From Sulfitobacter sp. SK012 (GTDB lineage Bacteria; Pseudomonadota; Alphaproteobacteria; Rhodobacterales; Rhodobacteraceae), in the NCBI RefSeq assembly GCF_003352085.1, contig NZ_CP025804.1, positions 2,914,001 to 2,978,000 on the forward strand: a stretch of 64,000 nucleotides of DNA. Reading direction: 5' to 3'. Each line of letters opens with the position of its first letter. Positions within the stretch are counted from its first letter, which is position 1. Shown here in pieces: positions 17,650 to 34,760 of this stretch. The notes beneath the pieces were generated by a model. The model was not told where the DNA came from. It worked only from the letters and a program-made list of their open reading frames with translations, and searched no databases. The position numbers and the translations under genes are program-made.

Positions 17650-18376
17650 GACTTATCACGACAACAGATCTTGGCCTCTCTTATGGCGCACGCATTGTGC
17701 TGGAGGGTGTCAACATCGGCATCGACCGCGGAGAGATCGTGACGATCGTGGGGCCTAACGGCTCTGGCAAATCGTCGCTGCTGCGCGCTTTGATCGGTGC
17801 CTTGCCACCGCGGCGTGGCAAAGTCACCCGCGCTCCCGGTTTGCGCATTGGCTTTGTCCCCCAAAAACTGCAGATCGATGCATCTTTGCCCCTTACTGTC
17901 TCTCGGTTTCTCAACCTTCCGCACAAGACCACACCCACCGCAATTGAGGCCGCCCTTGCCGATGCTGGTGTCTCGGATCTGGGCACGCGGCAAATGGCGC
18001 AGCTGTCTGGTGGGCAATTTCAACGCGTGCTGCTGGCGCGCGCGCTTTTGAGCACGCCAGATATCCTGATCCAAGATGAAGCCACGCAGGACCTCGACTA
18101 ACCAGGGGCCGCAAGTTTTTTTCCGCCAGATCGAAGCCGTCCGCCAAGCGCGTGGCTGTGCCGTGTTGATGGTCAGCCATGATTGCATGTTGTGATGGCC
18201 GCCAGTGACCGAGTGGTGTGCTTTAACGGCCACGTGTGTTGCGAAGGGACGCCGGATGTCGTGGCCGACGCCCCCGAATACCGCGCGCTCTTTGGCACTG
18301 GGACGCAAGTGCTTTGGCGCTGTACCGCCATGACCACGATCATCATGGTCACGACCACGATCACGGAGCCCACTAA
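17646..18376 (+). pseudogene. znuC: Broken zinc ABC transporter ATPase gene
   Basis: The first 152 residues are a good ZnuC with Walker A GPNGSGKSS, signature LSGGQFQR and Walker B ILIQDEATQDLD. A TAA then replaces the expected Gln codon (18099-18101). After it, coding continues as ZnuC sequence but with an extra T in a T-run (18116-18122), a missing T near 18183 (SHDLHVVMAA needs it) and a further shift near 18313. The final frame encodes the usual His/Asp tail ([15 protein letters not shown]) and stops at 18376, touching the znuB start. Four lesions make a functional product very unlikely. Confidence 0.9.
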
Positions 18377-19170
18377 TGCTAGATGATTTCTTAGTGAGCG
18401 CGGCTCTTGCCGGGCTTGGGGTGGCCCTTGCCGCAGCCCCGTTGGGTTGTTTCGTTGTTTGGCGCCGCATGGCCTATTTTGGCGATGCAACCAGCCATGC
18501 GGCGATCCTTGGCTTGGCACTGGCATTGGCGACGGATTTGCCAATCTTTGCAGGGGTTTTGGCCGTGGCACTGGCGATGGCGCTGCTCATTGCGGCGCTG
18601 TCTGAACGCACTGTGAGTGCCGACACGCTGCTTGGAGTTTTGGCCCATGCCGCATTGGCCCTCGGACTGGTGGCTGTGTCACTACTGGACGGGGTCCGGG
18701 TGGATTTGGACGCCTATCTATTTGGCGATATCTTGGCAGTGACGCGCGCTGATCTGGTGGTCATCTGGAGCGGTGCGGCCCTTGTCGCAGGCCTGATGAT
18801 CTGGCGCTGGCAAGCATTGCTGACCGCAACCCTTTCGCCTGATCTGGCAAGTGCCAGCGGTGGCAATCCGCGCCGCGAAGTGCTGCTCCTCACCCTCGCT
18901 TTGGCAGTGACCGTGGCGGTCGCAATCAAGGTCGTAGGGGCGTTGTTGATCGCGGCAATGCTGATTACCCCAGCAGCAACCGCGCGGCCCTTTGCACGAA
19001 CACCCGAGATGATGGCGGCCTGCGCCGTTATCATAGGGGCCGTCGCCGCCCTAGGGGGGTTGGGTGGGTCCTACATCTTTGATACGCTAACCGGCCCCAG
19101 CATCGCCAGCTTTGCTGCCGGGCTTTTTGCGCTCTCGATTGCGCTTTGGCCCCTGCTCCGCCGGGCTTAG
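18376..19170 (+). CDS. znuB: Zinc ABC transporter permease ZnuB
   Basis: The 264-residue membrane protein has about seven to eight hydrophobic segments and family motifs [23 protein letters not shown] and [20 protein letters not shown]. Its ATG overlaps the stop of the znuC reading frame (TAATG). No frameshift or stop is seen. Without ZnuA and ZnuC made here it cannot form a working importer unless partners are encoded elsewhere. Confidence 0.92.
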
Positions 19171-19172
19171 GT

Positions 19173-19574
19173 TTACGCTTTAGACAGAACCGCAGTGGCT
19201 TCAATCTCGACCTTGGCTTCATCCTCAACAAGGGCTGAAACAACGACCATGGCCATCGCCGGGAAATGCCGCCCCATAACTTCGCGGTAGGCGCGGCCGA
19301 CATCTGCTTGTGCCGCTAGATATTCCGCTTTGTCAGTGACGTACCAAGTCAGACGGACGATGTCTTCGGGCGTACCTCCGGCCGCTTCGACCACGGCCCG
19401 AATGTTGCGCAGGGCCTGCACCATCTGACCAATGAAATCATGCGCTTCAAACTTTTGATCCACTGTCCAACCGATCTGCCCTCCGACAAAAAGGTGCCCG
19501 TCTGCGGCCAACACGCCATTGGCGTATCCTTTTGCCGGGGCCCAGCCCTCGGGTTGAATAATTTGATGTGCCAT
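19173..19574 (-). CDS. RidA family protein of the kynurenine/aminobenzoyl-CoA operon
   Basis: The 133-residue Rid domain protein has FVGGQIGWTVD, the VRLTWYVTDKAEYLAA segment and the terminal KVEIEATAVLS. The archetypal RidA Arg in the RVEIEA position is Lys here, so it may belong to another Rid subgroup. Family members hydrolyse enamines or imines to ketones and ammonia. It is the last gene of the 14-gene unit, 25 bases after the LivF-type ATPase, where an enamine-type ring product is expected, so a deamination role is plausible but inferred. Confidence 0.88.
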   Translation of the reverse strand: MAHQIIQPEGWAPAKGYANGVLAADGHLFVGGQIGWTVDQKFEAHDFIGQMVQALRNIRAVVEAAGGTPEDIVRLTWYVTDKAEYLAAQADVGRAYREVMGRHFPAMAMVVVSALVEDEAKVEIEATAVLSKA

Positions 19575-19599
19575 AGTCTTTTCCTCCTCGTCAGGGGCG

Positions 19600-20289
19600 T
19601 CAAACGCCCAAATATTGATCCGCTATTTGTGCGGATAGGTCTGTCATTGGTCCCGACCACACGGTGGTGCCACGTTCTAAAATAACGGCGCTGTCCGCCA
19701 CACCGCCAAGTTCACGCAGGGATTTATCCACCACGATCAGCGACATGCCGGTTTCTGCCTTGAGTTTAGCGACGGCTGCCCAGATCTCTTGGCGGACCAC
19801 CGGGGCCAACCCTTCGGTCGCCTCATCGAGAAGCAGCAGCGTTGGATTTGTCATCAAGGCGCGACCAATTGCGAGCATCTGCTGTTCGCCGCCCGATAAG
19901 CTTGCGGCAAGCTGGCTTTGACGTTCTCCCAATCGCGGAAAAAGGTCTGTCACGGCAGCCACATCCCAAGGCCCTTTGCGGGCCGCGGCGATCAGGTTCT
20001 CATGCACTGTCAGCGGGCCAAAGCAGCGACGCCCCTCAGGCACCAATCCGATGCCTGCGCGCGCGGCGCGGTAGCTGGGCAACCGGGCGATGTCTTTGCC
20101 GTTAAATTCCAGCGTTCCACCAGAATGTCTGAGCATCCGGCAGATCACCTTATTGGTCGAGGATTTACCCATCCCATTGCGCCCCATCAACGCCAGTACT
20201 TCGCCTTGTTGCAGTGCCAGATCGACACCAAACAACGCCTGTGATGGCCCGTAAGACGCCGTGATCCCCCTGAGGTTAAGCACATTCAT
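19600..20289 (-). CDS. ABC transporter ATPase, LivF family (second importer)
   Basis: The 229-residue ATPase has Walker A GRNGMGKSS, signature LSGGEQQM and Walker B LLLDEATEGLAP. The ATG overlaps the upstream ATPase stop by 4 bases. It belongs to the importer encoded within the kynurenine/aminobenzoyl-CoA operon. Confidence 0.93.
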   Translation of the reverse strand: MNVLNLRGITASYGPSQALFGVDLALQQGEVLALMGRNGMGKSSTNKVICRMLRHSGGTLEFNGKDIARLPSYRAARAGIGLVPEGRRCFGPLTVHENLIAAARKGPWDVAAVTDLFPRLGERQSQLAASLSGGEQQMLAIGRALMTNPTLLLLDEATEGLAPVVRQEIWAAVAKLKAETGMSLIVVDKSLRELGGVADSAVILERGTTVWSGPMTDLSAQIADQYLGV

Positions 20290-21041
20290 GCCGCGTCCTC
20301 CGACCCCAAATAGGCTTCTCGGACATCCGGGTTCTTGCGGATTTCATCCGCGGTGCCGGTCGCGATAATTTGGCCGTAGACCAGCACCGAGATGCGGTCA
20401 GCAAGCGCAAAGACCGCGTCCATGTCATGCTCCACCAACAAAATCGGTGCCTGTGCGCGCAATCCATCGAGAAAACCTGTCATCTCTTTGGAGCCTTCTG
20501 CCCCCAGCCCCGCCATCGGTTCGTCCATCAAGAACACTGACGGCTCCAAGGTCAGTGCCACAGCGACCTCGAGCTGGCGGCGCTGTCCGTGGCTTAACTC
20601 AGCCGTCCGGCGCGCGGCGGCATCCTGCAGACCAACCCGTTCCAGCGCATCCATGGCCCGCGCGCGCAACCCGTCCTGTTTCAGGACCGGCCCAAAGAAA
20701 CGCATGACCCCACCTTGGCACCCTAATGCACCAAGGGTCACGTTTTGCAGCACCGTCATCTCCATCGCGAGTGACGAAATTTGAAAAGTACGCCCCAGCC
20801 CTGCACGCGCCCGTGCAACCGTTCCCAGTGCAGTCACATCGCGACCGGCAAATTCAACCGTGCCGCTGTCGGATTTCAGGCCCCCGGCGATCTGTTTGAT
20901 CAGCGTGGATTTTCCCGCACCGTTAGGTCCGATCAACGCATGGATTTCGCCCTGCATCAGGGTCAACGACACACCATCCGTTGCCTTGAGCGCGCCAAAG
21001 CTCTTGTGCAGATCTTTGATTTTCAGCAGCGGATCAGTCAT
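20286..21041 (-). CDS. ABC transporter ATPase, LivG family (second importer)
   Basis: The 251-residue protein starts at the ATG at 21041, inside the end of the permease gene (8-base overlap). Walker A is GPNGAGKST, the signature variant is ELSHGQRRQLE, Walker B is FLMDEPMAGL and the switch histidine lies in LLVEHDMDAVF. An upstream in-frame start at 21062 would extend it by seven residues. It pairs with the LivF-type subunit that follows. Confidence 0.93.
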   Translation of the reverse strand: MTDPLLKIKDLHKSFGALKATDGVSLTLMQGEIHALIGPNGAGKSTLIKQIAGGLKSDSGTVEFAGRDVTALGTVARARAGLGRTFQISSLAMEMTVLQNVTLGALGCQGGVMRFFGPVLKQDGLRARAMDALERVGLQDAAARRTAELSHGQRRQLEVAVALTLEPSVFLMDEPMAGLGAEGSKEMTGFLDGLRAQAPILLVEHDMDAVFALADRISVLVYGQIIATGTADEIRKNPDVREAYLGSEDAA

Positions 21042-22017
21042 GAGCCTGCTCGCGTCCTGCAATAAGGCCGATCATGCCACCGCGCGCAAAAAGCACCACG
21101 AGCAACAAAAGCACCCCCAGATAAACATGCCAGAAATCACTGAGGCCGCCCAAAACATGCTCCAGAAGGATGAACAATGCCGCCCCCGCAACAGGGCCAA
21201 AGAGCCGCCCTACCCCGCCTAAGATCACAAAAACCATGATCTCTCCGCTGGTTTGCCAACTGAACATTGTGGGGCTTACAAAACGGTTGAGATCCGCAAA
21301 AAGCGCGCCCGCCAGGCCCGTCACCGCCCCTGACAGCACAAATGCCACCAGCCGAATGCGGTAAGGCGTGATCCCGACCGTCTCGACCCGCTCTGGGTTT
21401 TGACGCGCGGCAGACAGCGCCAAGCCGAAAGGTGCGGCGGCCAGACGGCCCGCGAAAAACAAAACCAAAGCCAACAGCGCAAAACAGATGCCAAAAAAGG
21501 TTAGCGGATCAAGCGTGTTAAGACCGGGAAAGCCATTGCGCACATAGACCGACAGGCCATCTTCACCGCCATACGCGCTCCAGGAGATGCTGAAATAATA
21601 AAGCATCTGACCAAAGGCGAGCGTGATCATGATGAAATAGACGCCCGAGGTGCGTAAGCTGAGCGCGCCGATCGCTAACGCGGCCAGCGCACTTGCGATG
21701 ATCGCGACCAGCCAGATGATCGGCATGGATTTGGTGCCCTCAATCAAAAACGGCACCTCCATCAGCGGCGTGTAATTTTGGGCGTGAAAGGCAAGAATGC
21801 CCATCGCATAGCCCCCAATGCCAAAGAACGCAGCGTGACCAAGACTGACCAAGCCGCCCAGTCCCAGCGCGATGTTCAAGCCAACCCCAGCGAGTGCAAG
21901 GATCGCAGCTTTGGTGGTCAGCGTGATGATAAATGGCGCGTCGAGGACAAACGCCACGAGTGCTGTCACTGGCAGGAGTGCAAAAAGAAAGACGTTCAGG
22001 AGGGTTTCGCGCCGCAT
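21034..22017 (-). CDS. ABC transporter permease, LivM family (second importer)
   Basis: The 327-residue membrane protein has GLGGLVSLGHAAFFGIGGYA and GGVGRLFGPVAGAALF, typical of LivM. The ATG at 22017 has GGGAGG upstream and starts one base after the previous stop (TAAGATG). An upstream in-frame start at 22032 inside the preceding gene is less likely. Confidence 0.92.
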   Translation of the reverse strand: MRRETLLNVFLFALLPVTALVAFVLDAPFIITLTTKAAILALAGVGLNIALGLGGLVSLGHAAFFGIGGYAMGILAFHAQNYTPLMEVPFLIEGTKSMPIIWLVAIIASALAALAIGALSLRTSGVYFIMITLAFGQMLYYFSISWSAYGGEDGLSVYVRNGFPGLNTLDPLTFFGICFALLALVLFFAGRLAAAPFGLALSAARQNPERVETVGITPYRIRLVAFVLSGAVTGLAGALFADLNRFVSPTMFSWQTSGEIMVFVILGGVGRLFGPVAGAALFILLEHVLGGLSDFWHVYLGVLLLLVVLFARGGMIGLIAGREQAHD

Positions 22018-22018
22018 C

Positions 22019-22936
22019 TTACGCCTCCCCAAAGAGGCCGGTGGGTTTGAATAATAGTACCCCCGCCATCAAGATGTAGATCGACATATTCGCCAAAGAA
22101 GAGCCCAGCGACGTGGCCGCCTGCGCCTCCATAAACGTGGCAAAGAGCGGCGGAAGCAGCACGCCACCAAGCGTATCTGTCAGCCCGACCAACAGCGCAC
22201 CCACCAGCGCGCCTTTGATCGATCCGATGCCGCCGATCACGATCACAACAAAGGCAAGGATCAGCACTGGCTCGCCCATACCAACCTGAACTGATTGAAT
22301 GGCCCCAACGAGCGCGCCCGCAAGCCCAGCAAGCGCGGCCCCAAGAGCAAAGACCAACGTGTAGAGCTTTGAGATATCGACCCCAAGGGCTGCGATCATT
22401 TCACGATCGGCCTCACCTGCACGAATTTGGATGCCAATGCGGGTCCGTGCAATCAACGCAAACAGCCCCATTGCGATCAGCAGTCCAACGACGATGATGG
22501 TCAAACGGTAGAGCGGGTATTGGATGCCACCGGGCAGCATAACGGCCCCACTGAGCGCAGGTGGAATATCAAGAAACAGCGGAAATGAGCCAAAAACCCA
22601 CCGCGTCCCTTCAGAGAAAATAAGGATCAGAGCAAAGGTCGCCAGCACTTGATCAAGGTGGTCGCGGTCATAAAGCCTGCGGATCACCAACAACTCAACC
22701 AAAGCACCCGCCGCAGCCGCTGCGGCCAGTGCTGCTATCAATCCAAGTGCAAATGATCCAGTCGCCGCCGACACAGCCGCCGCGGCAAAAGCACCAACCA
22801 TATAAAGCGATCCATGGGCCAGATTGATCAGCCCCATCACGCCAAAAATAAGCGTCAGGCCGGCCGCCATCAAGAACAGCATGATGCCCGATTGCAGGCC
22901 ATTGAGCACCTGTTCGATCAAAAGGATTGGGGTCAT
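22019..22936 (-). CDS. ABC transporter permease, LivH family (second importer)
   Basis: The 305-residue membrane protein has MAAGLTLIFGVMGLINLAHG near the start and a conserved VIVIGGIGSIKGALVGALL segment. It is the first permease gene after the binding protein, separated from it by 85 bases that contain a GC-rich hairpin. Confidence 0.92.
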   Translation of the reverse strand: MTPILLIEQVLNGLQSGIMLFLMAAGLTLIFGVMGLINLAHGSLYMVGAFAAAAVSAATGSFALGLIAALAAAAAAGALVELLVIRRLYDRDHLDQVLATFALILIFSEGTRWVFGSFPLFLDIPPALSGAVMLPGGIQYPLYRLTIIVVGLLIAMGLFALIARTRIGIQIRAGEADREMIAALGVDISKLYTLVFALGAALAGLAGALVGAIQSVQVGMGEPVLILAFVVIVIGGIGSIKGALVGALLVGLTDTLGGVLLPPLFATFMEAQAATSLGSSLANMSIYILMAGVLLFKPTGLFGEA

Positions 22937-22987
22937 TGCGGGTCAAAGCTTCCTTGGCCCTGCGATGTGCAAGGTTGGTGTTTGAAT

Positions 22988-23014
22988 GCGCGCGCCAGGG
23001 TGCCCGGCGCGCGC
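22988..23014. promoter_or_regulatory. GC-rich intercistronic hairpin after the second substrate-binding protein gene
   Basis: GCGCGCGCC (22988-22996) and GGCGCGCGC (23006-23014) are a perfect 9-bp inverted repeat with a 9-base loop. No T-run follows on the transcribed strand, so it is more likely an mRNA-stabilising or partial termination element than a full terminator. It occupies the same operon position as the hairpin at 3474. Confidence 0.6.
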
Positions 23015-23021
23015 CAAAGAT

Positions 23022-24164
23022 TTAAAAGCTGCAGTCAGCGCCGTAGACGTCTGAGTGACCTGATGCCGCAACGCCAATGATCTTATTGGTTACGACATCG
23101 CCCTGCTTGACGACTTCGCGCATGTAGATGTCCTGCACGGGGTGGTGGTTAGGTGCAAAGCTGAACGACCCACGCACACTGTCGAAATCAGCCGCCTCAA
23201 GAGCGGCTCGGAAAGCATCCGCGTCTTTGACATCGGCCGAAGCGGCCGCAGAGGCCAGCAAGAGCCCGGTGTCATAACCTTGAGCCGCATAGAGTGACGG
23301 TAGGCGGCCATATTCAGCCTCAAAATCGGCAACAAATTTGACGTTTGCAGGATTGTCGATGTCTTTGGACCAATGCGAGGTGTTCTTGACCCCGATGGCC
23401 GCGTCGCCAATCGCCCCTAGGATACCTTGATCAAAGCTAAACGCAGGGCCCATAACGTTTTTATCCACGCCCGAGCCTGAGTATTGCTTCATAAAGGAAA
23501 TCCCCATGCCGCCCGGCAGGAAGTAAAACACTGTATCGGCATCTGACGCACGGATTTGGCTGATCTCAGCTGCGTAATCGGTCTGGCCCAGTTGGGTATA
23601 AACCTCTTGCGCGATCTCGCCTTTGAACATGCGCTTGAAACCGGTCATCCCGTCTTTGCCGGCTGGATAATTCGGCGCGATCAGGAATACTTTGCCGATG
23701 CCATTTTCATTTGCCCAGCTGCCTGCGGCCTCGTAGAACGCATCGTTCTGCCACGCCACGTTAAAGTAATTCTGATGGCACCCCTTCCCGGCCAGCTGGC
23801 TGGGACCGGCATTGGGGCTAATGTAGAACTTGCCTTGCGCCGTTGTCGCCGGGACCACCGCCATGGCGAGGTTGGACCAGATAATGCCTGTCAGCACATC
23901 GACCTTTTCGGATTGGATCATCTTATCGGTCAGTTGCACCGCGATGTCAGGTTTGCGCTGATCATCCTCAATCACCAGTTCAATCGCGTCATTGCCTTTG
24001 GTCGCCAGCAAAAAGCCGTCCCGCACGTCTACGCCAAGGCCGGCACCGCCGCCCGAAAGCGTGGTGATCATACCCACCTTCACTGTGCCGCCATGGCCAT
24101 CGGCCACAGCGCCCGTTGCAACCGCAGCAAGCCCGGCAGCGAGGATCATTGATCGTAATTTCAT
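23022..24164 (-). CDS. ABC transporter substrate-binding protein (second importer)
   Basis: The 380-residue binding protein has a Sec signal peptide (MKLRSMILAAGLAAVATGAVA) and the type I periplasmic-binding fold (VKVGMITTLSGGGAGLGVDVRDG). The start has AGGGAGACGACC upstream. Two or more cysteines (near residue 128 and the C-terminal GADCSF) may form a disulfide. It sits directly after kynureninase in the same direction, so its ligand may be tryptophan, kynurenine, anthranilate or a related aromatic; this is inferred from context. Confidence 0.9.
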   Translation of the reverse strand: MKLRSMILAAGLAAVATGAVADGHGGTVKVGMITTLSGGGAGLGVDVRDGFLLATKGNDAIELVIEDDQRKPDIAVQLTDKMIQSEKVDVLTGIIWSNLAMAVVPATTAQGKFYISPNAGPSQLAGKGCHQNYFNVAWQNDAFYEAAGSWANENGIGKVFLIAPNYPAGKDGMTGFKRMFKGEIAQEVYTQLGQTDYAAEISQIRASDADTVFYFLPGGMGISFMKQYSGSGVDKNVMGPAFSFDQGILGAIGDAAIGVKNTSHWSKDIDNPANVKFVADFEAEYGRLPSLYAAQGYDTGLLLASAAASADVKDADAFRAALEAADFDSVRGSFSFAPNHHPVQDIYMREVVKQGDVVTNKIIGVAASGHSDVYGADCSF

Positions 24165-24253
24165 GGTCGTCTCCCTAGTTGTTGAGCCTCATTCAGCGGG
24201 CCCGTTTGGTGGCGCGGCATAAGCCCCGCGCCGTTGTCAAAAGATTGCGCGGA
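24165..24253. other. Short gap between kynureninase and the importer genes
   Basis: The gap contains the ribosome site of the binding-protein gene and a GC-rich partial inverted repeat (GGCGCGGC/GCCCCGCGCC). It is the largest break in the 14-gene unit and could hold an internal promoter, though none is obvious. Confidence 0.35.
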
Positions 24254-25444
24254 TCAAGTCACCTTGGACCGCGTTTTATATTTATCGTTGTCCCACAGCC
24301 GGTTGTTCATCACATCTGCAATGACCTTGACCGCGGCGCTTATGTCAGCTGCATCCAGATACATCGGGGTAAAGCCAAAGCGCATAATATCTGGCGCACG
24401 AAAATCGCCGATCACACCATGATCGATCACGGCCTGCATCGCGGCATAGCCATGCTCAAACTGGAACGATACCTGCGACCCGCGAATGGCCCCTTCGCGC
24501 GGACTGGCAAGGGTCAATTGCGGTGCATCCCGCTCAACCTCAAAGATGAATTGCTCTTGCAGGGCCAGTGAGGCCGCGCGCAATTCGTTCATGTCGATGT
24601 CTTCCCAAAGCTCCATCGCAACTTCGAGCGCTGCAAGTTGGATGATCGGCGGGGTGCCAACACGCATCCGCTCGATGCCAAGGCCTGGCTGATAGTTCAG
24701 ATCAAAATCAAAGGGTTGGCGATGTCCAAGCCAACCACTGAGCGCCGGCTCGATACTATCCATCAAGTCGGGCCGCACATAAATAAACGCCGGTGCGCCG
24801 GGACCGCCATTGAGGTATTTATACGTACACCCAATCGCCATTTCGCACCCGGATCCAAGCAAATCGACAGGCAACGCCCCTGCCGAATGGGCAAGATCCC
24901 AGATCATCACCGCGCCCTGCGCCTGTGCCGTCTTGGTGATCGCGGCCACATCATGCCTGCGGCCTGTGCGGTAATCGACTTCCGTAAGAAGCACGGCTGC
25001 GTGGGTCTCATTGATCGCACCGGCCACCTCTTCAGGGGCGACTGTTTGCAGCTCATAGCCTTGCGCAAGCAGCCCTACGAGGCCCTCAGCCATATAGAGA
25101 TCAGACGGGAAATTGCCGGTATCACTCAAGATCACACGCCGCTCTGGCCGCATCTTGACCGCCGAAGCGAGCGCCTGGAACACCTTGATGGACAGCGTAT
25201 CGCCCATGACCACCGATCCTGTGGGGGCGCCGATGATCCGGCCCACTTGATCGCCAATCTTTGCAGGTTGATCCATCCAACCCGCGCCGTTCCAACCCCG
25301 GATCACCATTTGACCCCACTCGTCACTCAGCATTTTTTGGACCCGCGCGGCCACGCCCTTGGGCAAAGGCCCCAGCGAATTGCCATCAAGGTAGATCACC
25401 CCTTCAGGTAGGATAAATGCGTCTTTTTTCAGTACGTTGGACAC
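24254..25444 (-). CDS. kynU: Kynureninase
   Basis: The 396-residue PLP enzyme cleaves kynurenine to anthranilate and alanine. It shows LPEGVIYLDGNSLGPLPKG at the start and the PLP lysine in CTYKYLNGGPGAPAF. The start codon is GTG directly after the kynA stop (TAAGTG), with AGAGGAG upstream, showing tight coupling. Its product anthranilate is the substrate of the CoA ligase encoded two genes upstream. Confidence 0.96.
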   Translation of the reverse strand: MSNVLKKDAFILPEGVIYLDGNSLGPLPKGVAARVQKMLSDEWGQMVIRGWNGAGWMDQPAKIGDQVGRIIGAPTGSVVMGDTLSIKVFQALASAVKMRPERRVILSDTGNFPSDLYMAEGLVGLLAQGYELQTVAPEEVAGAINETHAAVLLTEVDYRTGRRHDVAAITKTAQAQGAVMIWDLAHSAGALPVDLLGSGCEMAIGCTYKYLNGGPGAPAFIYVRPDLMDSIEPALSGWLGHRQPFDFDLNYQPGLGIERMRVGTPPIIQLAALEVAMELWEDIDMNELRAASLALQEQFIFEVERDAPQLTLASPREGAIRGSQVSFQFEHGYAAMQAVIDHGVIGDFRAPDIMRFGFTPMYLDAADISAAVKVIADVMNNRLWDNDKYKTRSKVT

Positions 25445-26272
25445 TTATAGTGCTCCTCTAACATGCCATAGCTCTGGAAACAGCTCAACTTCGAGCATCT
25501 TGCGCAAATAGCCAACACCTGATGTGCCGCCCGTCCCGCGCTTGAAACCGATGATCCGCTCAACTGTCGTGACGTGGTTAAAACGCCAGCGACGAAAATA
25601 ATCCTCAAGATCGACGAACTTTTCCGCCAATTCATATAATTCCCAATGGGTTGCGGGATCTTCATAAACATGCTGCCACAGGTCCTGCACCGCCTGCTGC
25701 GCGGCCCAATCGGAAGTCGCGGGCGCACCCGCAAGTTTGTCCTGCCCAAGACGGGTGCACACCACGTCGATCGCAACTTGGTACAGGCTTGGTTGGGTCA
25801 ATTCATCCTGCAAAGCGGCCAATGCGATCGGCCGGTGCTGGTGCAGTTTCATTAAGGCACCGACCCGGTTGCCCAGAAGGTATTCAACCAGCCGGTATTG
25901 ATGCGACTGAAACCCTGATGAATTGCCTAACGACGGCCGAAACGCGGTGTATTCACTCGGCGTCATCGTCCGCAGCACGTCCCAAGCGTTGTTAAGCTGT
26001 TCAAAGATACGCGCCACCCTGCTGAGCATCTTGAACGCCGGCTGCAAATCCCCCGACAGCATCACCTTGCGGGCTTCCTGAAGCTCGTGGATCGCCAAGC
26101 GCATCCATAATTCTGAGGTCTGATGCTGGATGATGAACAGCATTTCGTCATGAGCATCGCTCAGCGGATGCTGCGACGACAATATCGCATCGAGGCCCAG
26201 GTAATCGCCATAAGACATGTCCTTGGCGAAATCCATCTTGGCGCCGTCAGAGGCTTTTTCAAAATCGCTCAT
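25445..26272 (-). CDS. kynA: Tryptophan 2,3-dioxygenase
   Basis: The 275-residue haem enzyme opens the indole ring of tryptophan to N-formylkynurenine. Family motifs are [31 protein letters not shown], the proximal-histidine segment [14 protein letters not shown] and the C-terminal [13 protein letters not shown]. The ATG overlaps the ligase stop by ATGA. No kynurenine formamidase gene lies in the operon, so the next step must be done by a protein encoded elsewhere. Confidence 0.96.
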
Positions 26273-27888
26273 GTTGCTGTCCTGAGGGCAAAGCGTTGAA
26301 TCTTGCCTGTGGCTGTTTTGGGGAGTGCGTCAATAAATTGGATGTCGCGAGGGTATTTAAAGGGAGCAATTTTTGCCTTAACGTGATCCTGTAATTCCTT
26401 GATAATATTTGAATTATTTTCAAAACCTTCATTAAGAACCACATGCGCCTGCACAATGGATCCACGCGCTTCATCCGGAGCAGCCACTACGCCACATTCG
26501 CTGACTGCTGGGTGGGATAGCAAGGCGGCTTCCACCTCTGGTCCTGCAATATTGTAACCGGAGGAGACGATCATATCGTCATTACGCGCAGCGAAATGCA
26601 GGTATCCATCGTCATCCATCGAAAAGCTGTCACCCGTGATGTTCCAGCCATCGATTACATATTCAGCCTGCCGCGCATCGCCCAAATAGCGGCAACCTGT
26701 CGGCCCTCTCACCGCCAAACGCCCGACCTCGCCCCGCGGCATTTCTACGCCATTCTGATCAATGATCTTGGCCTCGTACCCTGTGACAGGCCGCCCGGTG
26801 CAGGCCGCTTTGTGGTCGTCGAAACGGTTGGAAATGAAGATATGCAGCATCTCGGTCGCGCCGATCCCATCCAGCATCGGCTTGCCGGTCTTGGCCTTCC
26901 AATCGTGATAAACAGGTGCAGGCAATGTTTCACCCGCACTGACGGCTGCGCGCAGGCTACTTAGGTCGGCACCATCATCCATTGCCTGCAGCATGGCGCG
27001 GTAGGCGGTCGGCGCGGTAAAACAAACCGTGGCTTTGAATTTTTCAATGATTTCAATCATATTTGGTGGACTTGCTGTCTCTAGCAGTGTTGCCGCAGCC
27101 CCAAACCTCAGGGGGAATATCGCAAGTCCCCCGAGGCCGAACGTGAAAGCCAAGGGCGGCGAGCCAACAAACACATCCTCTGGCACAACGCCCAAAACCT
27201 CACGGGCATAACCATCCGCAATCACCAAGAGGTCACGATGAAAATGCATTGTTGCCTTTGGGTTACCGGTCGTTCCTGATGTGAAACCCAAAAGAGCAAC
27301 GTCATCTTGGCTAGTGTCGACGGCATCAAAATGCACCGGCTTTTCCAGTGCCAAACGATCAAGTTCTGCATCGTGGTTGCTGGTCCCGTCAAACCCGACC
27401 ACCGTTTTAAGAAACCGCGATGTCTTGGCGCATCCGGCCATCTCGTCCATCAGGCGCGTATCGCACAGCGCATGGCTTATCTCGGCCTTGTCTACAATCG
27501 CGGTAAGCTCTCCCGTGCGCAGCATTGGCATGGTGTTCACCACGACTGCGCCGGCTTTGGTTGCGGCCAACCAACAGGCGACCATCGCGGGGTTATTGGC
27601 ACTTCGGATCAGGACCCGGTTCCCTGGCTTTAGCCCAAGGTTATCGACCAACGCCGCCGCCAATTTATTGGTCCAGTCAGCCAGCTCTTTGTAGGTCCGG
27701 CGTCGACCATTCCCGATCAAAGCGGTGCGATCACCATGCCCTTTTTCCACCATATTATCAGTTAGCTCCACGCCAACATTCAACCGATCCGGATAGTCAA
27801 ACCCATCAAGGCGCAAATCTGGCCAAGTCGCCGCAGGCGGCAGGTTATCGCGGGTAAAACTATCGCTATGTCCAGAGCGTCCCAGCAT
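26269..27888 (-). CDS. Benzoate/2-aminobenzoate-CoA ligase family protein
   Basis: The 539-residue adenylate-forming enzyme has the A3 loop [13 protein letters not shown], the [12 protein letters not shown] region and the catalytic lysine motif [10 protein letters not shown]. It resembles benzoate-CoA ligase family members. Next to kynU, whose product is anthranilate, and the two-domain monooxygenase, the expected substrate is anthranilate (2-aminobenzoate). The start at 27888 has AGGAGG upstream. Substrate assignment is from context; benzoate or salicylate are alternatives. Confidence 0.9.
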
Positions 27889-27890
27889 CG

Positions 27891-29039
27891 CTATCGTCCT
27901 CCTAAAACCTGACGGGCAATGACGACCCGTTGCACGTCTGATGCGCCCTCATAGATGCGCAAGGCGCGGATCTCGCGGTACAGGCTTTCAACCGTTTCGC
28001 CGACCCGCACACCGTCACCACCATGTAGTTGCACCGCCTTGTCGATCACCTGCTGGGCGCGATCGGTCGCGAATAGTTTCGCCATTGCAGCCTCACGGGT
28101 TACACGCGGCGCACCGCTGTCTTTGGTCCAGGCAGCGCGGTATACCAGCAAGGCCGCGGCATCCACATCCAGCGCCATGTCTGCGATGTGCCCCTGAACC
28201 ATCTGTAAATCCGCCAAGGGTGCCCCTTGCACCTGTCGCGCCGTTACCCGTTCAATTGCTTCGTCCAAGGCGCGCCGCGCAAAACCAAGCGCTGCTGCGG
28301 CTACGGTCGTACGAAAGACATCTAGCACCGACATCGCGATGGCAAATCCCTGCCCTGGTGCGCCGATCAGTGCAGATTTGGGCACGCGGCATTTCGTAAA
28401 CCGAAGCCGTGCAAGCGGATGGGGCGCGATGACCTGCAACCGCTCAACCACTTCAAATCCCGGCAGTCCTGCAGGCACGATAAATGCACTTAATCCGCGT
28501 GCGCCGGGTGCCTCACCTGTACGGGCGAACAACGTGTAGACATCTGCAATGCCACCGTTGGAAATCCAGGTTTTTTCGCCGTTCAGGACATAGTCATTGC
28601 CGTCCTCAACCGCCGTCATTGTCGAGTTCGCGACGTCCGAGCCTGATTGCGGTTCGGTCAGGGCAAATGCCGAAATTGCTTGTCCCTTACGGGTCAACGG
28701 CAGCCATTCTTGTTGTTGGGATTCATTCCCAAAAAGCGAGATTGCACCGGTTCCCAGCCCCTGCATCGCAAAGGCGAAATCGGCCAAACCGTCATGACGC
28801 GCCAATGTTTCGCGGGTGAGACTTAGGCTGCGGACATCAAGCGTTTCGCCTTGGGGCGCGGCAGAATGTTGTAACCAGCCATCTTCGCCCATACGACGCA
28901 CAAGTGCGCGACAGGCTGCATCCGTGTCGCTGTGATCAATATCTCCCAACGCGCCGGGGACCCACGCCTCAAGTGAGTCAGCCAGCGCCTTGTGACGCGG
29001 CTCCAAAAAGGGCCAATCAAGGAAACTTCGATCAGCCAT
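27891..29039 (-). CDS. Acyl-CoA dehydrogenase
   Basis: The 382-residue flavoprotein has [17 protein letters not shown], the FAD segment [21 protein letters not shown] and the C-terminal catalytic region [19 protein letters not shown] with Glu in YEG. It would oxidise a CoA thioester of the ring-derived chain after dearomatisation. Two to three bases separate it from its neighbours on each side. Confidence 0.92.
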
Positions 29040-29042
29040 GGT

Positions 29043-29843
29043 TCAATCTCCCTGAAACTCTGGTTTTTGCTTGTCCACAAATGCTGTGTAGGCGCGCTCA
29101 AAATCGCCGGTCTGCATGCAGATCGCTTGTGCTTGCGCCTCTGCCTCAATGGCTTGTTCGATCGACATCGACCATTCCTGCGCCAGCATCGTTTTGGTCA
29201 TCATATGCGCGAAATTTGGCCCAGCTTGAATTCTGCGCGCGAGCGTCACGGCTTCGGCTTCCAGTGCGTCAATCTCCACGACGCGGTTGAAAAAGCCCCA
29301 GCGTTCGCCTTCATCAGCGCTCATTGAGCGGCCGGTATAGAGCAACTCCGCCGCGCGGCCTTGTCCGATCAATCGTGGCAGGATCGCGCAAGCCCCCATG
29401 TCACAGCCTGCTAGGCCAACACGGGTAAATAAAAACGCTATTTTGGCCTGTGGCGTCGCAATCCGAAGGTCTGATGCCATCGCAATAATCGCGCCTGCGC
29501 CCACGCAAATGCCATCCACAGCGGCGATTACGGGCTTGCCGCAGTTGATGATGGCCTTAACCAAATCACCGGTCATACGGGTAAATCGCAGCAGTTCTTT
29601 CATGTTCATTCTAGTCAAAGGCCCAATGATATCATGCACATCACCGCCAGAGCTAAAGTTACCCCCATTTGATGCAAACACGACCACATCGACGTCATCT
29701 GAATAAACCAGATCGCGAAACCAGTCGCGCAGTTCGGCATAGCTGTCAAAGGTTAGCGGGTTTTTACGGTCTGGTCGGTCCAGCCGCACGGTCGCAACGC
29801 CGCTGTCGATCTCACAGATAAAATGTTTCACATCACTGCGCAT
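29043..29843 (-). CDS. Enoyl-CoA hydratase/isomerase family protein
   Basis: The 266-residue crotonase-fold protein starts at 29843 (GGAGGAAACCC upstream), overlapping the MarR gene by 11 bases. It has the oxyanion segment [11 protein letters not shown] and [17 protein letters not shown]. The position often held by the catalytic Glu reads [18 protein letters not shown], so it belongs to a variant subgroup and may act as hydratase, isomerase or ring hydrolase. Context suggests work on the alicyclic CoA thioester. Confidence 0.9.
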
Positions 29844-30315
29844 GGGTTTCCTCCGCTTTATCCGTTTGGTCTGCGAATTGCTGAAGTCGGGCTGCGAGCG
29901 TGCGGGCTTCCTCGGCGGTGACGCCAGACAACATATCATCAATCCACGCTTCATGGGCACGGGCCTGACTGGCAAATTCAGTGTACCCAGTAGGTGTCAA
30001 CCGCAACAGCGTTGCACGACGGTCACCGGGAACGGGCACACGCTCCACAAGGCCCTCATCAGCGAGCCGATCGGCAATGCCGGTGACATTACCGCCCGAG
30101 ACACGCAGGACGTCAGACAGGCGGCTCATTTTCAGGCCGTCTTTATGCTGTGATAGCGCAGCCATCAGATCAAATCTTGGTAACGTACTGGCGAACTCCA
30201 CCCGAAATTTGTCACGCAGACGCGCGTCCACGGACCGGGTCATCTTGAGCAACCGCAACCACAAACGCAGACGTTCTTTGGACGCTGGATCATCTGGATG
30301 CTGGGCGCTGGTCAT
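29833..30315 (-). CDS. MarR-family transcriptional regulator
   Basis: The 160-residue winged-helix protein has [24 protein letters not shown], the recognition helix region [23 protein letters not shown] and the wing [16 protein letters not shown]. MarR proteins in aromatic-acid operons usually bind aryl-CoA or the free acid and release DNA. It is inside the operon, overlapping both neighbours. The inverted repeat at 33371-33407 is its likely target. Confidence 0.92.
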
Positions 30316-31031
30316 ATTTCGCCCCCGGACACGGAAAGGGCGTGGCCATTCACCATGGAGGCCCCCTCGGAGGCAAGAAACTGCACGGCCGCGACTACTT
30401 CTTCGGTGCGGATCATCCGGCGCATGGGATTGCCTGAGACGATGCGCGCTTCCGCGTCGTCCGCGCTGATGGAGAACCGCTTGGACACAGCGTCAACTGC
30501 TGCTGCCCCCATGTCAGTATCCACGAAACCGGGACAGACCGCGTTGCAGGTAATCCCACTGCGCGCGACCTCTTGGGCCAACGCACGTACCAGACCAAGG
30601 ACCCCGTGTTTTGCGGCCACATATGCCGAGATGTTTGGGCCACCTTGCAGGCTTGCCGTCGAGGCAATCGCGATCAACCGCCCACCGGTCTGCATTTCCT
30701 GCACGGCTGCCCGAAAAGTCAGGAACGTTCCGGTCAAATTGACAGACAGTGTATCATTCCACTGTTCTAGCGACATATCGCGCAACTTTGTTGGGGTGCC
30801 CGCACCTGCGTTGGCAATCACGACGTCGAAGGGCTGTGCAAACCATGCGGCCACATCCGCCTCATTGGTGACGTCACCTGTCACGCAGGTCATGCCACGC
30901 CCACCGTCGGTTTCACGCAGCGCTTCTTCGCGCCTGCCCGTGATTGTGACTGCATCCCCCGCATCAGAAAATGCCCGCGCCGTTGCCCGGCCAATCCCTG
31001 ATCCGCCGCCCGTGATTAAGACCTGTCTCAT
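30312..31031 (-). CDS. Short-chain dehydrogenase/reductase
   Basis: The 239-residue SDR has the cofactor loop [15 protein letters not shown], the catalytic Ser in [12 protein letters not shown] and Tyr-Lys in YVAAKHG. GRREEAL after the second strand suggests NADP preference. It would act on a ring ketone or hydroxyacyl-CoA intermediate. It overlaps both neighbours by 4 bases (ATGA junctions). Confidence 0.92.
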
Positions 31032-33319
31032 ACTTTCTCTACCTCCGCTGCGCGGTCAGCAAGCCGCCATAACTGGTCGCGCCCAGCTTCATAAGGAGCG
31101 GGCCATTTTGCGTGGCGGTCGCCAATCGCGGCCCCGTGGCGCAATGTCCAATAAGGATCAGCCAGATGCGGACGAGCCAGACAAACAAGGTCCGCGCGCC
31201 CGGCCATCAAGATCGAATTGACATGGTCGGCCTCAAAGATGTTGCCAACTGCCATGGTTTTGATCCCACCTTCGTTGCGGATGCGGTCAGAGAATGGTGT
31301 TTGGAACATGCGGCCATAGACGGGCTCGCCAATAGTGCTGGTTTGTCCGGCAGAAACATCAATAATGTCAGCCCCAGAAGCCTCAAACATACGCGCAATT
31401 TCTACGGCTTCTTCGGGGGTCACGCCGTCATCACCGGCCCAATCATTGGCAGATATCCGCACCGACATCGGCTTGGCTGCGGGCCATACCGCACGCATCG
31501 CCTCAAAGACTTCGAGCGGATAGCGCATGCGGTTTTCAAGGGTGCCGCCGTATTCATCCGAACGCGTATTCGACAAAGGTGAGATGAAACTTGAGACAAA
31601 ATAGCCATGTGCGGCATGTAATTCGATCATGTCGAACCCGGCGCGGTCCGCCATCTGGGCTGCTGTCACAAATTCATCGCGGATGCGGTCCATGTCGTCG
31701 CGCGTCGCGGCCTTGGGTGTGGCGTTGCCTTCGGACCACGGAATGGCGGATGCCGAGATGATTGGCCAATTGCCGTCCTTGAGCGGTGCGTCCATGGTCT
31801 CCCACCCCACCTGGGTCGACCCTTTGCGGCCCGAATGGCCGATCTGGCAGCAAATCATGGCTTCGGTCTCAGTATGGACAAAACCCGTAAGGCGCACCCA
31901 AGCGGCCTCGTGTTCCGGCGCGTAGAGCCCTGGACAGCCCGGAGTGATCCGACCGTCCGCTGAGACGCATGTCATCTCTGTGTAAACAAGTGCAGCCCCG
32001 CCCTTGGCCCGCTCACCGTAGTGAATGAGGTGCCAGTCGGTGGGCGCGCCATCGACGGCCTTGTACTGCGCCATGGGCGAGACGACGATGCGGTTGATCA
32101 GGTCCATCTCGCGCAGCTTGAAGGGCGCAAACATCGGGGTGCGCGCCGGGCCATTGGCCCCTGCTCCCGCTTGTTCCATGAACCACTTCTCGGCGCCCGC
32201 CAGCCAGTCAGGATCGCGCTCGCGCAGGTTCTCGTGGCTGATGCGTTGGCTGCGGGTCAGCATCGAATAATTCAGCTGTACCGGGTCGAGATCAAGATAA
32301 CGCTCAACATCTTCGAACCACTCGACCGAATTGCGCGCCGCCGATTGCAAACGCAGCACTTCAAGTCGGCGCGCTTCCTCATATTTGGCAAATGCCGTCG
32401 GTAGATCCGCATCGTCACTGACATGCTTGGCCAAACTCATCGCGGATTCCAACGCCAGCTTTGTGCCAGACCCGATTGAAAAATGCGCCGTCGCAGACGC
32501 GTCGCCCAAGAGCACCAGGTTTTCGTGGCTCCAATGTTCGCACAGCACGCGGGGGAACTTGATCCAGGCCGAACCGCGGATATGGGTGGCGTTGGTCATC
32601 AACTTATGCCCGCCCAAATGATCTTTGAAGATCTCTTCGCAGACCGCAATCGTCTGCTCCTGGTTCATCTCGCCAAACCCGTGGGCATCAAAGGTCTGTT
32701 GCGAGCATTCCACAATGAAGGTCGCCGTTTCATCGTCAAATTGGTAAGCGTGCACCCAAATCCAGCCCTTATCGGTTTTTTCAAAGATAAAGGTAAACGC
32801 GTTGTCGAATTTCTGATGGGTGCCCAGCCAGACAAACGGGCAGCGGCGCACGTCGATGTCAGGTTTGAAGGCATCTTCAAATTCCATTCGCGCCTTTGAG
32901 TTCAAGCCATCGCAGGCCACAACCAGATCATAGCCATCCATGTAGCTAGAGGCGGCTTTAACTTCCGTTTCGAACTGGAGGTTCACGCCAAGTTCGCGGG
33001 CGCGATCTTGCAAGATTAGCAGCAGGCGCTTGCGACCAATGCCACAAAACCCATGACCCGAAGACAAGATCGTGTGGCCCTGATGGTGCAGCGCGATGTC
33101 ATCCCAATAGGCAAAATGGCTGCGGATTTCCTCGGCCGAAACGGGATCGTTGATTTGAAGGTTGTCGAGTGTTTCATCTGACAACACCACACCCCAACCA
33201 AAGGTATCATCAGGCTTGTTGCGCTCCAGAATCGTCACTTCGGCATCCGGTTCACGCAGCTTGAGAGAGATCGCAAAGTAGAGCCCCGCAGGCCCTCCGC
33301 CCAAACATATCGCGCGCAT
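31028..33319 (-). CDS. Two-domain flavin monooxygenase/reductase, 2-aminobenzoyl-CoA monooxygenase/reductase type
   Basis: The 763-residue protein joins an N-terminal FAD monooxygenase ([16 protein letters not shown] at the start, [19 protein letters not shown] near residue 280) to a C-terminal Old Yellow Enzyme domain from about residue 395 ([43 protein letters not shown]). This architecture is that of 2-aminobenzoyl-CoA monooxygenase/reductase, which hydroxylates and reduces the ring in one protein. Database names often call it bifunctional salicylyl-CoA 5-hydroxylase/oxidoreductase. The ATG at 33319 has GGGGAG upstream. It is the first gene of the unit; kynU and the ligase favour the aminobenzoyl substrate. 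Confidence 0.92.
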
Positions 33320-33370: not shown

Positions 33371-33407
33371 TTTGCTTCAAGTAAAAATATTTTACACCTA
33401 AAGCAAA
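33371..33407. promoter_or_regulatory. 37-bp imperfect palindrome, likely MarR operator of the catabolic operon
   Basis: TTTGCTT at 33371 and AAGCAAA at 33401 are exact inverted arms, and the inner bases continue the symmetry around an AT-rich centre (15 of the outer 19 pairs agree). It lies 52 bases upstream of the first gene of the operon. The symmetry and position suit a dimeric regulator such as the MarR protein at 29833; the link is inferred. Confidence 0.65.
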
Positions 33408-33409
33408 CT

Positions 33410-34285
33410 TTACGGCGATAGAACGGTTACGCCCGGAATGCGTTGGATCGTAACCAGGTCATCATCGTAGATATCCGACATTTCCTCGACCAGCGCATCG
33501 GTCCAGCCGGGCATGTCCAGTTCTTCCTCGATCTGGTCATCAAGCCCATATTTACCCAAGAACGCCGCAATCACCCGGCGCTTTTGAATTTCGGTCATGA
33601 CCGGATGATCCTTGAGGTAGCCCCGAAACCTGGTCATCCCCTCCGCCGACATGATCGACGTCAGCAGATCAAAGCCACCGATGATTTTTTCGCCATGATC
33701 AAGGCCGGCCATCTCGCGGATAATTTCGGCCCAAATGAGCGGCGCATCTTCGTTGCACCAAACCGTCAACGTGGCCTCAGGCGCGGCTTCACGGATCAAT
33801 GCGATCGTTTCGGACCACAAGATCTGGCGTGGATCGCGCCCGCCCCAAAATGCATCGCCGTCTTTGTTCTGAGATTTTTCATAGAGCACCGGCAACAATG
33901 TCGCGGGATTTCGGATGGCCATAAAAATCTCGAACTGATCGGATGGGAAGAGCTGCATCATGCGCATCATCCGCACCGGGGCAGCAGGGTATAGCATCCC
34001 CCCCTGCACTGCCGTCGACGGCGTGCGAAAGAAATTCCCGTCAGATAGGATGACCCGCTCCGCCTCGCCTTCGTCCAGAAACGAATCGAGCAAGACTTCA
34101 CGCGCGCCCGGTGCCGCGGGCGAATTGGTCATGGCGTTCAACGTATCGCGCACAAGGCTGCGATATTTGCCCGGCCCGGGCACTGCAACACCACGATTTC
34201 CAAGGTCCTCTGCATTGCGCAGCAGGCACTTCAAAAGCCGCTCTTCTTCGGTGAAATGGACACCTGTGTGTAAAACCAGCTGCAT
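33410..34285 (-). CDS. Sulfotransferase-like protein, unknown
   Basis: The 291-residue protein starts at the ATG at 34285. The N-terminal MQLVLHTGVHFTEEERLLKCL resembles the phosphosulfate-binding loop of sulfotransferase-like proteins (LHIGxHKTGT pattern) but lacks the usual Lys-Thr-Gly. A later FEIFMAIRNPATLLPVLYEK resembles their second nucleotide-binding segment (IRNP). No signal peptide is seen. It stands alone, upstream of the catabolic operon on the same strand and downstream of nothing related. Function is not assigned. Confidence 0.7.
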   Translation of the reverse strand: MQLVLHTGVHFTEEERLLKCLLRNAEDLGNRGVAVPGPGKYRSLVRDTLNAMTNSPAAPGAREVLLDSFLDEGEAERVILSDGNFFRTPSTAVQGGMLYPAAPVRMMRMMQLFPSDQFEIFMAIRNPATLLPVLYEKSQNKDGDAFWGGRDPRQILWSETIALIREAAPEATLTVWCNEDAPLIWAEIIREMAGLDHGEKIIGGFDLLTSIMSAEGMTRFRGYLKDHPVMTEIQKRRVIAAFLGKYGLDDQIEEELDMPGWTDALVEEMSDIYDDDLVTIQRIPGVTVLSP

Positions 34286-34408
34286 AGCACTCCGCCTTGG
34301 TTTGAGACTGGCTCTATGTATAGCGGCTTTGTGTCTGGATAAAACAGCAATCCTCCCCCTCAAAGCCTCTTGCGCGGCGGCTCACAAGGCACTAAAGGAC
34401 CTCGCAGT

Positions 34409-34484
34409 GCCCCTATAGCTCAGCTGGTAGAGCAATTGATTTGTAATCAATAGGTCCGCGGTTCGAGTCCGTGTGGGGGCACCA
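34409..34484 (+). tRNA. tRNA-Thr (anticodon UGU)
   Basis: The 76-base cloverleaf has a 7-bp acceptor stem (GCCCCTA with TGGGGGC), a D arm with AGCTGGTAGA, an anticodon stem ATTGA/TCAAT with loop TTTGTAA (anticodon TGT at 34442-34444), and the T arm GGTTCGAGTCC. CCA is encoded at 34482-34484. It marks the edge of the IS-rich part of the window. Confidence 0.97.
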
Positions 34485-34646: not shown

Positions 34647-34760
34647 ACGATTGTGAATCCCGGAGACAAAATGGCCATGGAAATGGTTGGGTAATCTGAC
34701 CGTCGCGGAGTAAAATTCCGCAATCTAACATCTGGTGCTGTCGAGCAACGGGTGGGGAAG

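Follow-up and report, generated by a model that had tools for sequence, protein, structure and literature searches.

A gene unit of Sulfitobacter sp. SK012 that probably joins tryptophan breakdown to the aerobic 2-aminobenzoyl-CoA pathway

The window considered here is a stretch of 64,000 nucleotides from Sulfitobacter sp. SK012 (C1:2914001-2978000; genome of 5.18 Mb in 4 contigs), and the subject is a run of 14 genes on its minus strand, extending from 33319 to 19173. Judged from its genes and their relatives, this run probably represents a single inducible catabolic unit for L-tryptophan and anthranilate, namely a variant of the Azoarcus evansii-type aerobic 2-aminobenzoyl-CoA pathway that is fused with genes of the kynurenine pathway (kyn). 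The evidence lies in the gene content and order, the recurrent linkage of kynA to the module in related bacteria, the conservation of an upstream dyad, and several residue changes. The chemistry is mostly known; what is new is the join of the two pathways, a predicted switch, a Rid protein of a Met type, a formamidase candidate that is not KynB, and a crotonase-fold enzyme that apparently lacks the usual glutamates.

Gene content and proposed route

All 14 open frames are present, in the order 2-aminobenzoyl-CoA monooxygenase/reductase-type fusion protein (ABMO), SDR, MarR, enoyl-CoA hydratase-like (ECH-like) protein, acyl-CoA dehydrogenase (ACAD), ligase, kynA, kynU, binding protein, two permeases, two ATPases, and Rid. 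The gene families were assigned by Pfam, with NCBIfam matches for 10 of the 14 genes. With the best starts, the junctions in gene order measure -4, -4, -11, 3, 2, -4, 0, 89, 85, 1, -8, -4 and 25 bases; 10 of the 13 overlap by 4-11 bases or leave a gap of 0-3 bases, the exceptions being those of 89, 85 and 25 bases. The original prediction had placed these 14 genes here with mostly tight junctions, and frames, families and spacings were all found as it described. Starts were picked among alternatives for ECH (29843), PermM (22017) and AtpG (21041), and the MarR-ECH overlap of 143 bases in the mechanical list of open reading frames was dismissed as a start artefact. Promoter-like and terminator-like sites are as numerous in the unit as in shuffled sequence.

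The core of the Azoarcus-type module is present in a single run, and comprises an aryl-CoA ligase (26269..27888, 539 aa, PF00501), likely an anthranilate-CoA ligase, an SDR oxidoreductase (30312..31031, 239 aa, PF13561/PF00106), an ACAD (27891..29039, 382 aa, PF00441 etc.), and a crotonase-fold gene. The ACAD has Glu364 in an IYEG motif, and this Glu occurs in 76 of 76 ungapped rows (alignment of 77). A MarR-family regulator (29833..30315, 160 aa, PF12802) lies between the SDR and crotonase-fold genes. The ABMO (31028..33319, 763 aa) matches NF006101 with 1285.9 bits (cut-off 1078) and combines FAD_binding_3 (PF01494) with OYE (PF00724), so that the fused architecture claimed beforehand is confirmed. 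The genome has a single full-length ABMO and a single tryptophan 2,3-dioxygenase (TDO), and the closest six named ABMO relatives among the matches listed belong to Sulfitobacter/Roseobacter strains or bins (84-87%).

The TDO, encoded by kynA (25445..26272, 275 aa), matches PF03301 with 235 bits and 2nox with 353 bits; its H50 and H233 are kept in at least 95% of 38 rows, and we take these to be the residues concerned with haem (the haem histidine). The kynA frame overlaps the ligase stop by 4 bases. It is followed by kynU (24254..25444, 396 aa), whose kynureninase matches TIGR01814 with 254.3 bits (cut-off 246.4) and 1qz9 with 417.5 bits.

In the proposed route, KynA would convert tryptophan to N-formylkynurenine, a formamidase encoded elsewhere would yield kynurenine, and KynU would cleave this to anthranilate and alanine. 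The ligase would then form anthraniloyl-CoA, which the ABMO would hydroxylate and reduce to the non-aromatic enamine 2-amino-5-oxocyclohex-1-enecarbonyl-CoA; both reactions are known from the literature for other organisms and are carried over here by analogy. Rid probably hydrolyses the enamine to a dioxo thioester; ring opening or rearrangement is probably the task of the crotonase-fold enzyme, and the SDR and ACAD would feed beta-oxidation. A LIV-type importer would take up an aromatic acid, most likely anthranilate. MarR would repress at the dyad at 33375-33403, with release probably by an aryl-CoA or anthranilate, and the genes would presumably be carried on a single transcript.

Anthranilate is favoured as the substrate because the fusion protein sits with ligase, SDR, ACAD and ECH-like genes, and because kynA is repeatedly linked to it. 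The same observations uphold the earlier proposal of a CoA route in place of catechol, and anthranilate dioxygenase (AntA) is absent over cut-off from the whole genome (best 94.5 bits vs 671.9).

The aerobic 2-aminobenzoate clusters of Azoarcus (Aromatoleum) evansii likewise contain a ligase, a monooxygenase/reductase fusion and beta-oxidation genes (PMC4539516). Unlike those clusters as they are described, the window unit has kynA and kynU inside and a five-gene importer in line. Schuhle et al. (2001) reportedly also described a MarR gene, a substrate-binding protein gene and a 'translation inhibitor' (Rid) gene in the A. evansii clusters. As a betaproteobacterial stand-in for A. evansii, a plasmid unit of Comamonas odontotermitis (L155) was taken; it shares ABMO-SDR-ECH-ACAD-ligase-importer(5)-Rid, with 37-66% identity in the 11 shared proteins compared, but its stretch has no kyn genes, its MarR gene is divergent, and a thioesterase gene precedes Rid. 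In the plasmid unit of Sagittula stellata E-37 (L090), the core is likewise present, and its ligase gene is followed in line by kynA and kynU and then Rid; this unit differs in having no importer and a thioesterase gene before Rid. In Arthrobacter sp. Rue61a, two anthranilate-CoA ligases are active, and the anthranilate genes are fed by quinaldine rather than tryptophan, the string 'kynuren' occurring 0 times in the text (PMC3534580).

The operon kynBAU leads from tryptophan to anthranilate; the window unit shares kynA and kynU with it, but the genome has no KynB over cut-off and the unit is joined to the CoA route. No kyn-abm operon was found in the titles and abstract openings of the papers listed, subscription papers being mostly outside this reach. 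The unit provides a list of candidate genes, together with a predicted operator, for the breakdown of tryptophan and anthranilate, with related units in the marine strains Ruegeria pomeroyi DSS-3 and Sagittula stellata E-37.

Linkage to the kyn genes and the predicted operator

The linkage was followed in 83 loci, made up of the best 80 of at least 593 genome-collection matches and three plasmid records; the window is not counted, and the set leans toward its kin. Of the 77 loci that extend to ACAD or ligase, 68 have the exact order ABMO-SDR-MarR-ECH-ACAD-ligase; in three of the other nine the stretch examined contains no ligase, and in the rest MarR or SDR is missing at threshold. With up to 10 kb allowed to either side, 37 of the 69 determinable loci contain kynA; in 14 more the flank is too short to decide. 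Five kyn arrangements may be seen: after the first genes, kynA-kynU (13), kynU-kynA (5) or kynA alone (6), and upstream, divergent (11) or parallel (2). On the ABMO tree (a quick method, 84 rows including the window; of the 81 inner branches, 36 are starred), kyn presence has changed 15 times or more, with minima of 19 changes for the arrangement and 14 for importer presence. For unlinked genes, a chance expectation of about 1 in 200 may be estimated, a 20-kb stretch being about half a percent of a genome.

When 31 of the 32 kyn-less loci were put to a whole-genome search, a TDO was found elsewhere in 28 of 30 genomes searched; for one of the 32 (L039), the same genome has a second, kyn-bearing unit (L152). 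Among 58 genomes of the genus, including our own strain, ABMO is over cut-off in 44 and TDO occurs in all 58. As read from coordinates, 34 of the 44 have the TDO gene on the ABMO contig at a distance of about 5 kb; the ten others (G001, G003, G004, G005, G017, G030, G031, G043, G054, G056) include some short contigs. These figures, with kynA in 37 of 69 loci, five arrangements, at least 15 changes, and a spacing of some 5 kb in 34 of the 44 ABMO-bearing genomes of the genus, show that the link to tryptophan is not due to chance. kynA is also near ABMO in L188 and L189, from another family.

The original prediction had also proposed a search for the same 14-gene order; within the genus, it is complete in three of eight fetched units and incomplete in the other five. 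L101, L103 and L105 match the window in their kynAU, importer and Rid genes, with MarR below threshold in L101 and L103. L100, L102 and L107 have no importer or Rid in the stretch, and L104 has kynA alone. L106 is a second, divergent ABMO paralogue in G022 (47% identity, under cut-off). It lies beside its own KynA-like (39%), KynU-like (46%), binding protein and Rid genes.

A 29-bp dyad, predicted as the MarR operator, lies at 33375..33403 on the minus strand, 55 bases upstream of the first gene's ATG, and scores 24.0 bits; the next-best match in the 64-kb window has 7.3 bits. The symmetric matrix of 29 positions was trained on 73 upstream regions without the window and seven clade mates. Its seed was drawn from all upstream regions including that of the window, and therefore the test is not fully blind. 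The locus-wide best match falls within 200 bases before ABMO in 71 of the 73 training loci and in all seven clade mates. The dyad also precedes ABMO in seven of the eight fetched genus units, and is missing at the paralogue L106 (1.7 bits).

Before detached kyn units of the genus, a dyad of at least 9 bits is found in three of five genomes, namely G043, G030 and G054, and not in G001 and G017, the scores of the matches being 24.9, 13.7 and 9.6 bits; four of the ten genus genomes with a detached kynA lie outside this check. Among detached kyn units from genomes of other ABMO loci, only 2 of 26 have such a site. One of the site-less genomes among the 26, G063, shares its TDO coordinates with G056; the two are probably the same genus genome, and the count for the genus would then become three of six. 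At the same threshold, the dyad occurs in none of four tested genus genomes without ABMO over cut-off (14 such exist) and in neither of two second kyn copies, and the site is absent at the further TDO of G043 (L112). From these counts of detached kyn units, three of five in the genus and 2 of 26 in the others, it follows that the predicted regulatory coupling survives gene separation in some genomes, but not in most.

Points against and alternative explanations

Several observations weigh against a single unit for tryptophan and anthranilate. Of the 69 determinable loci, 32 have no kynA nearby; the importer is wanting in 41 of 70, and Rid is absent from 5 of 51 determinable loci and from the fetched stretch in four of the eight genus units. 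In a sample of 200 Pseudomonadota genomes, 25 (our own included) have an ABMO-family match with E ≤ 1e-250, 22 of them over cut-off; Rid is absent from 4 of the 23 long neighbourhoods of this sample (L195, L202, L207, L208). The gaps of 89, 85 and 25 bases allow internal promoters, and the TDO, with 379 bits, is narrowly under the TIGR03036 cut-off of 390.7. The dyad of the window is among the weaker ones (loci span 23.3-42.4 bits), and outside the genus few detached kyn units have it. Finally, NF006101 and RefSeq both name the ABMO salicylyl-CoA 5-hydroxylase, and a Cupriavidus homologue in a gentisate-type neighbourhood scores higher on the model (1358.6 bits).

The last two points favour a salicylate unit, in which the fusion protein would be a salicylyl-CoA 5-hydroxylase, the ligase would take salicylate toward gentisyl-CoA and gentisate, and kynAU would be mere neighbours. 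The Cupriavidus homologue is adjoined by a gentisate 1,2-dioxygenase-like gene (311.7 bits, cut-off 442.1) and a fumarylacetoacetate hydrolase family gene. In contrast, none of the 14 genes of the window unit is a gentisate 1,2-dioxygenase by Pfam. The ACAD and crotonase genes, which a gentisate route would not need, are members of the conserved core (68 of 77 loci), and kynA has joined and left the module repeatedly. The best solved relative of the ligase is 4wv3, 'Anthranilate-CoA ligase' (297 bits), with a benzoate ligase at 257.1 bits. Since NF006101 also covers members in anthranilate-type neighbourhoods, many of them named salicylyl-CoA 5-hydroxylase, the database names are probably too specific for these members. 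A salicylate unit is thus considered very unlikely.

In a second alternative, kynA and kynU would serve mainly for 3-hydroxyanthranilate (the NAD or meta-cleavage route), anthranilate being only spilled. The genome indeed has a 3-hydroxyanthranilate 3,4-dioxygenase over cut-off, but it lies at C1:269094 (L086:7095-7637), far from the kyn genes, and the single copy of kynA is elsewhere than its neighbourhood, where 7 of 17 frames listed are named. FAD_binding_3 occurs at 25 places in the genome, and the eight long proteins besides ABMO were scanned (E 1e-60; best 25 rows). None of the eight is named kynurenine 3-monooxygenase by NCBIfam, a weak point, the presence of such a model being unchecked. 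This alternative is regarded as very unlikely. Near the 3-hydroxyanthranilate 3,4-dioxygenase gene there are genes of the DHDPS family and for an aspartate dehydrogenase, an aldehyde dehydrogenase and an intradiol dioxygenase.

A chance meeting of two units, one for kyn and one for an aromatic acid, each with its own promoter and function, would accord with the three junctions of 25-89 bases and with the loci where kynA is distant while a TDO is kept, but is most improbable given the overlap of kynA with the ligase stop, the joining of the same two gene sets in five separate arrangements, and the dyad before detached kynA in three of five tested genus genomes.

Importer, formamidase and the later steps

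The LIV-type importer set is complete, with a substrate-binding protein (23022..24164, 380 aa, PF13458), permeases 1 (22019..22936) and 2 (21034..22017; both PF02653), and ATPases 1 (20286..21041, PF00005 + PF12399) and 2 (19600..20289, PF00005). Of the 70 determinable loci, 29 have the binding-protein gene after the ligase; kyn genes accompany it in 17 of these, are not nearby in 10, and could not be judged in two. The importer is therefore a part of the module that comes and goes with or without the kyn genes, as seen in the 17 and 10 loci and in Comamonas. The nearest solved chain to the binding protein is 4evq (179.8 bits), which we take to be RPA0668, a benzoate-type binding protein. RPA0668 binds benzoate, 4-hydroxybenzoate and salicylate (PMC3223731). 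With the importer following the module irrespective of kyn genes, and with this nearest relative, the earlier suggestion of an indole- or kynurenine-type substrate is not upheld as it stands; the best guess is anthranilate or another aromatic acid. A tie to kynurenine may still be hinted at in L150 (8182-10292) and L151 (8390-10469), which come from the genomes of L040 and L042: there, the gene after kynA encodes a 70% relative of this binding protein, and the 16-kb stretch has no ABMO.

The formamidase step is not encoded within the unit, and no KynB formamidase (TIGR03035) is over cut-off in the whole genome (best 47.8 bits vs 223.05). Two PF04199 proteins were ruled out as KynB, being far under the same cut-off. 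In Ruegeria pomeroyi, an alpha/beta hydrolase gene adjoins kynA, and a 47% homologue is present, unlinked, at C1:4445253-4446020 of our genome. This family occurs in 17 of 37 kyn-bearing loci vs 4 of 46 others (14 of the 46 undetermined for kyn). Against solved chains, the homologue matches 2pbl, a 'putative esterase/lipase/thioesterase' (314.1 bits), and 'Lipase 1' (101.5 bits); its match to the kynurenine formamidase 4e11, presumably of the Drosophila type, is weak (62.9 bits), with two esterases weaker still. NCBIfam names it hormone-sensitive lipase. It has the motifs HGGYW and GHSAGGH, the former of which we assume to be typical of AFMID. This hydrolase may be taken as the best candidate for the formamidase.

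The crotonase-fold enzyme (29043..29843, 266 aa), of the enoyl-CoA hydratase family by name, matches NF006107 with 478.6 bits (cut-off 330). In the numbering of a 310-aa long frame, Asp192 occurs in every one of the 62 rows that were usable out of 81, and aligns to the Asp of 6sl9 and 4fzw, the role of which we assume from PaaG. Ile163 and Phe183, each likewise in 62 of 62 rows, presumably occupy the places of the two glutamates of rat crotonase, an enzyme outside the alignments. With Asp192 kept and Ile163 and Phe183 presumably at the glutamate places, a plain hydratase role looks unlikely, and an isomerase or a ring-opening hydrolase is suggested.

The Rid-family protein (19173..19574, 133 aa, PF01042) scores 59.2 bits against TIGR00004, under the cut-off of 106.25. 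In an alignment with 1j7h, its Met107 falls at the position of the catalytic Arg of RidA-type proteins (Arg105 in the numbering of PMC4433059), while Glu123 is kept; both residues occur in all 43 ungapped rows of 47, the window included. The 'RidA' annotation is accordingly a family name only. A Rid gene is found in 19 of 25 neighbourhoods of the Pseudomonadota sample outside the window (L184 and L199 are short; L191 and L192 come from one genome), and all 19 have Met by eye. A role chiefly as an ordinary 2-iminoacid deaminase shielding KynU was rejected, since the Arg is lost and since 25 of the 29 determinable loci with no kyn genes nearby still carry Rid.

A thioester substrate would have no need of an Arg that holds a free carboxylate, so that in our reading the loss of Arg fits, and the kept Glu can still place a water. 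For work on Azoarcus and Arthrobacter, PMC3534580 mentions that the ABMO product is deaminated by hydrolysis, and also a CoA ester of C7H8O4; we infer that Rid may perform this deamination. A statement of Niehaus et al. on Rid proteins speaks in general against a role as deaminase, and in 2015 Rid4-7 were described as having completely unknown functions (PMC4433059). Taken jointly, a Met-type Rid as a CoA-bound enamine deaminase, a lone-Asp crotonase as the ring opener, and an AFMID-like hydrolase in place of KynB form a combination that is possible, if somewhat short of probable. If true, it would complete the route from tryptophan to central metabolism and give a function to the Arg-less Rid group; the unit in any case points to a concrete substrate with which an Arg-less Rid protein could be tried. 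A 4HBT-type thioesterase gene precedes Rid in many copies of the module (L090:21097-21504, L155:22580-23035, and others), and none was found in the unit of the window.

Beyond Rid, an ABC-3 family permease gene (18376-19170) is convergent with it, with two bases between the ends. Upstream of the operator, a protein at 33410-34363 on the same strand has no Pfam match at E 0.001, nor its 33410-34300 part an NCBIfam match at E 1e-5. Farther upstream of the unit, a tRNA-Thr gene (tgt; 34409-34484) is followed, at 34752-36260, by a transposase-like gene, with a Mu-transposase C-terminal domain at 35547-36260, and a frame (34752-35417) whose HTH matches stay under cut-off; these are perhaps a mobile element next to a tRNA gene.

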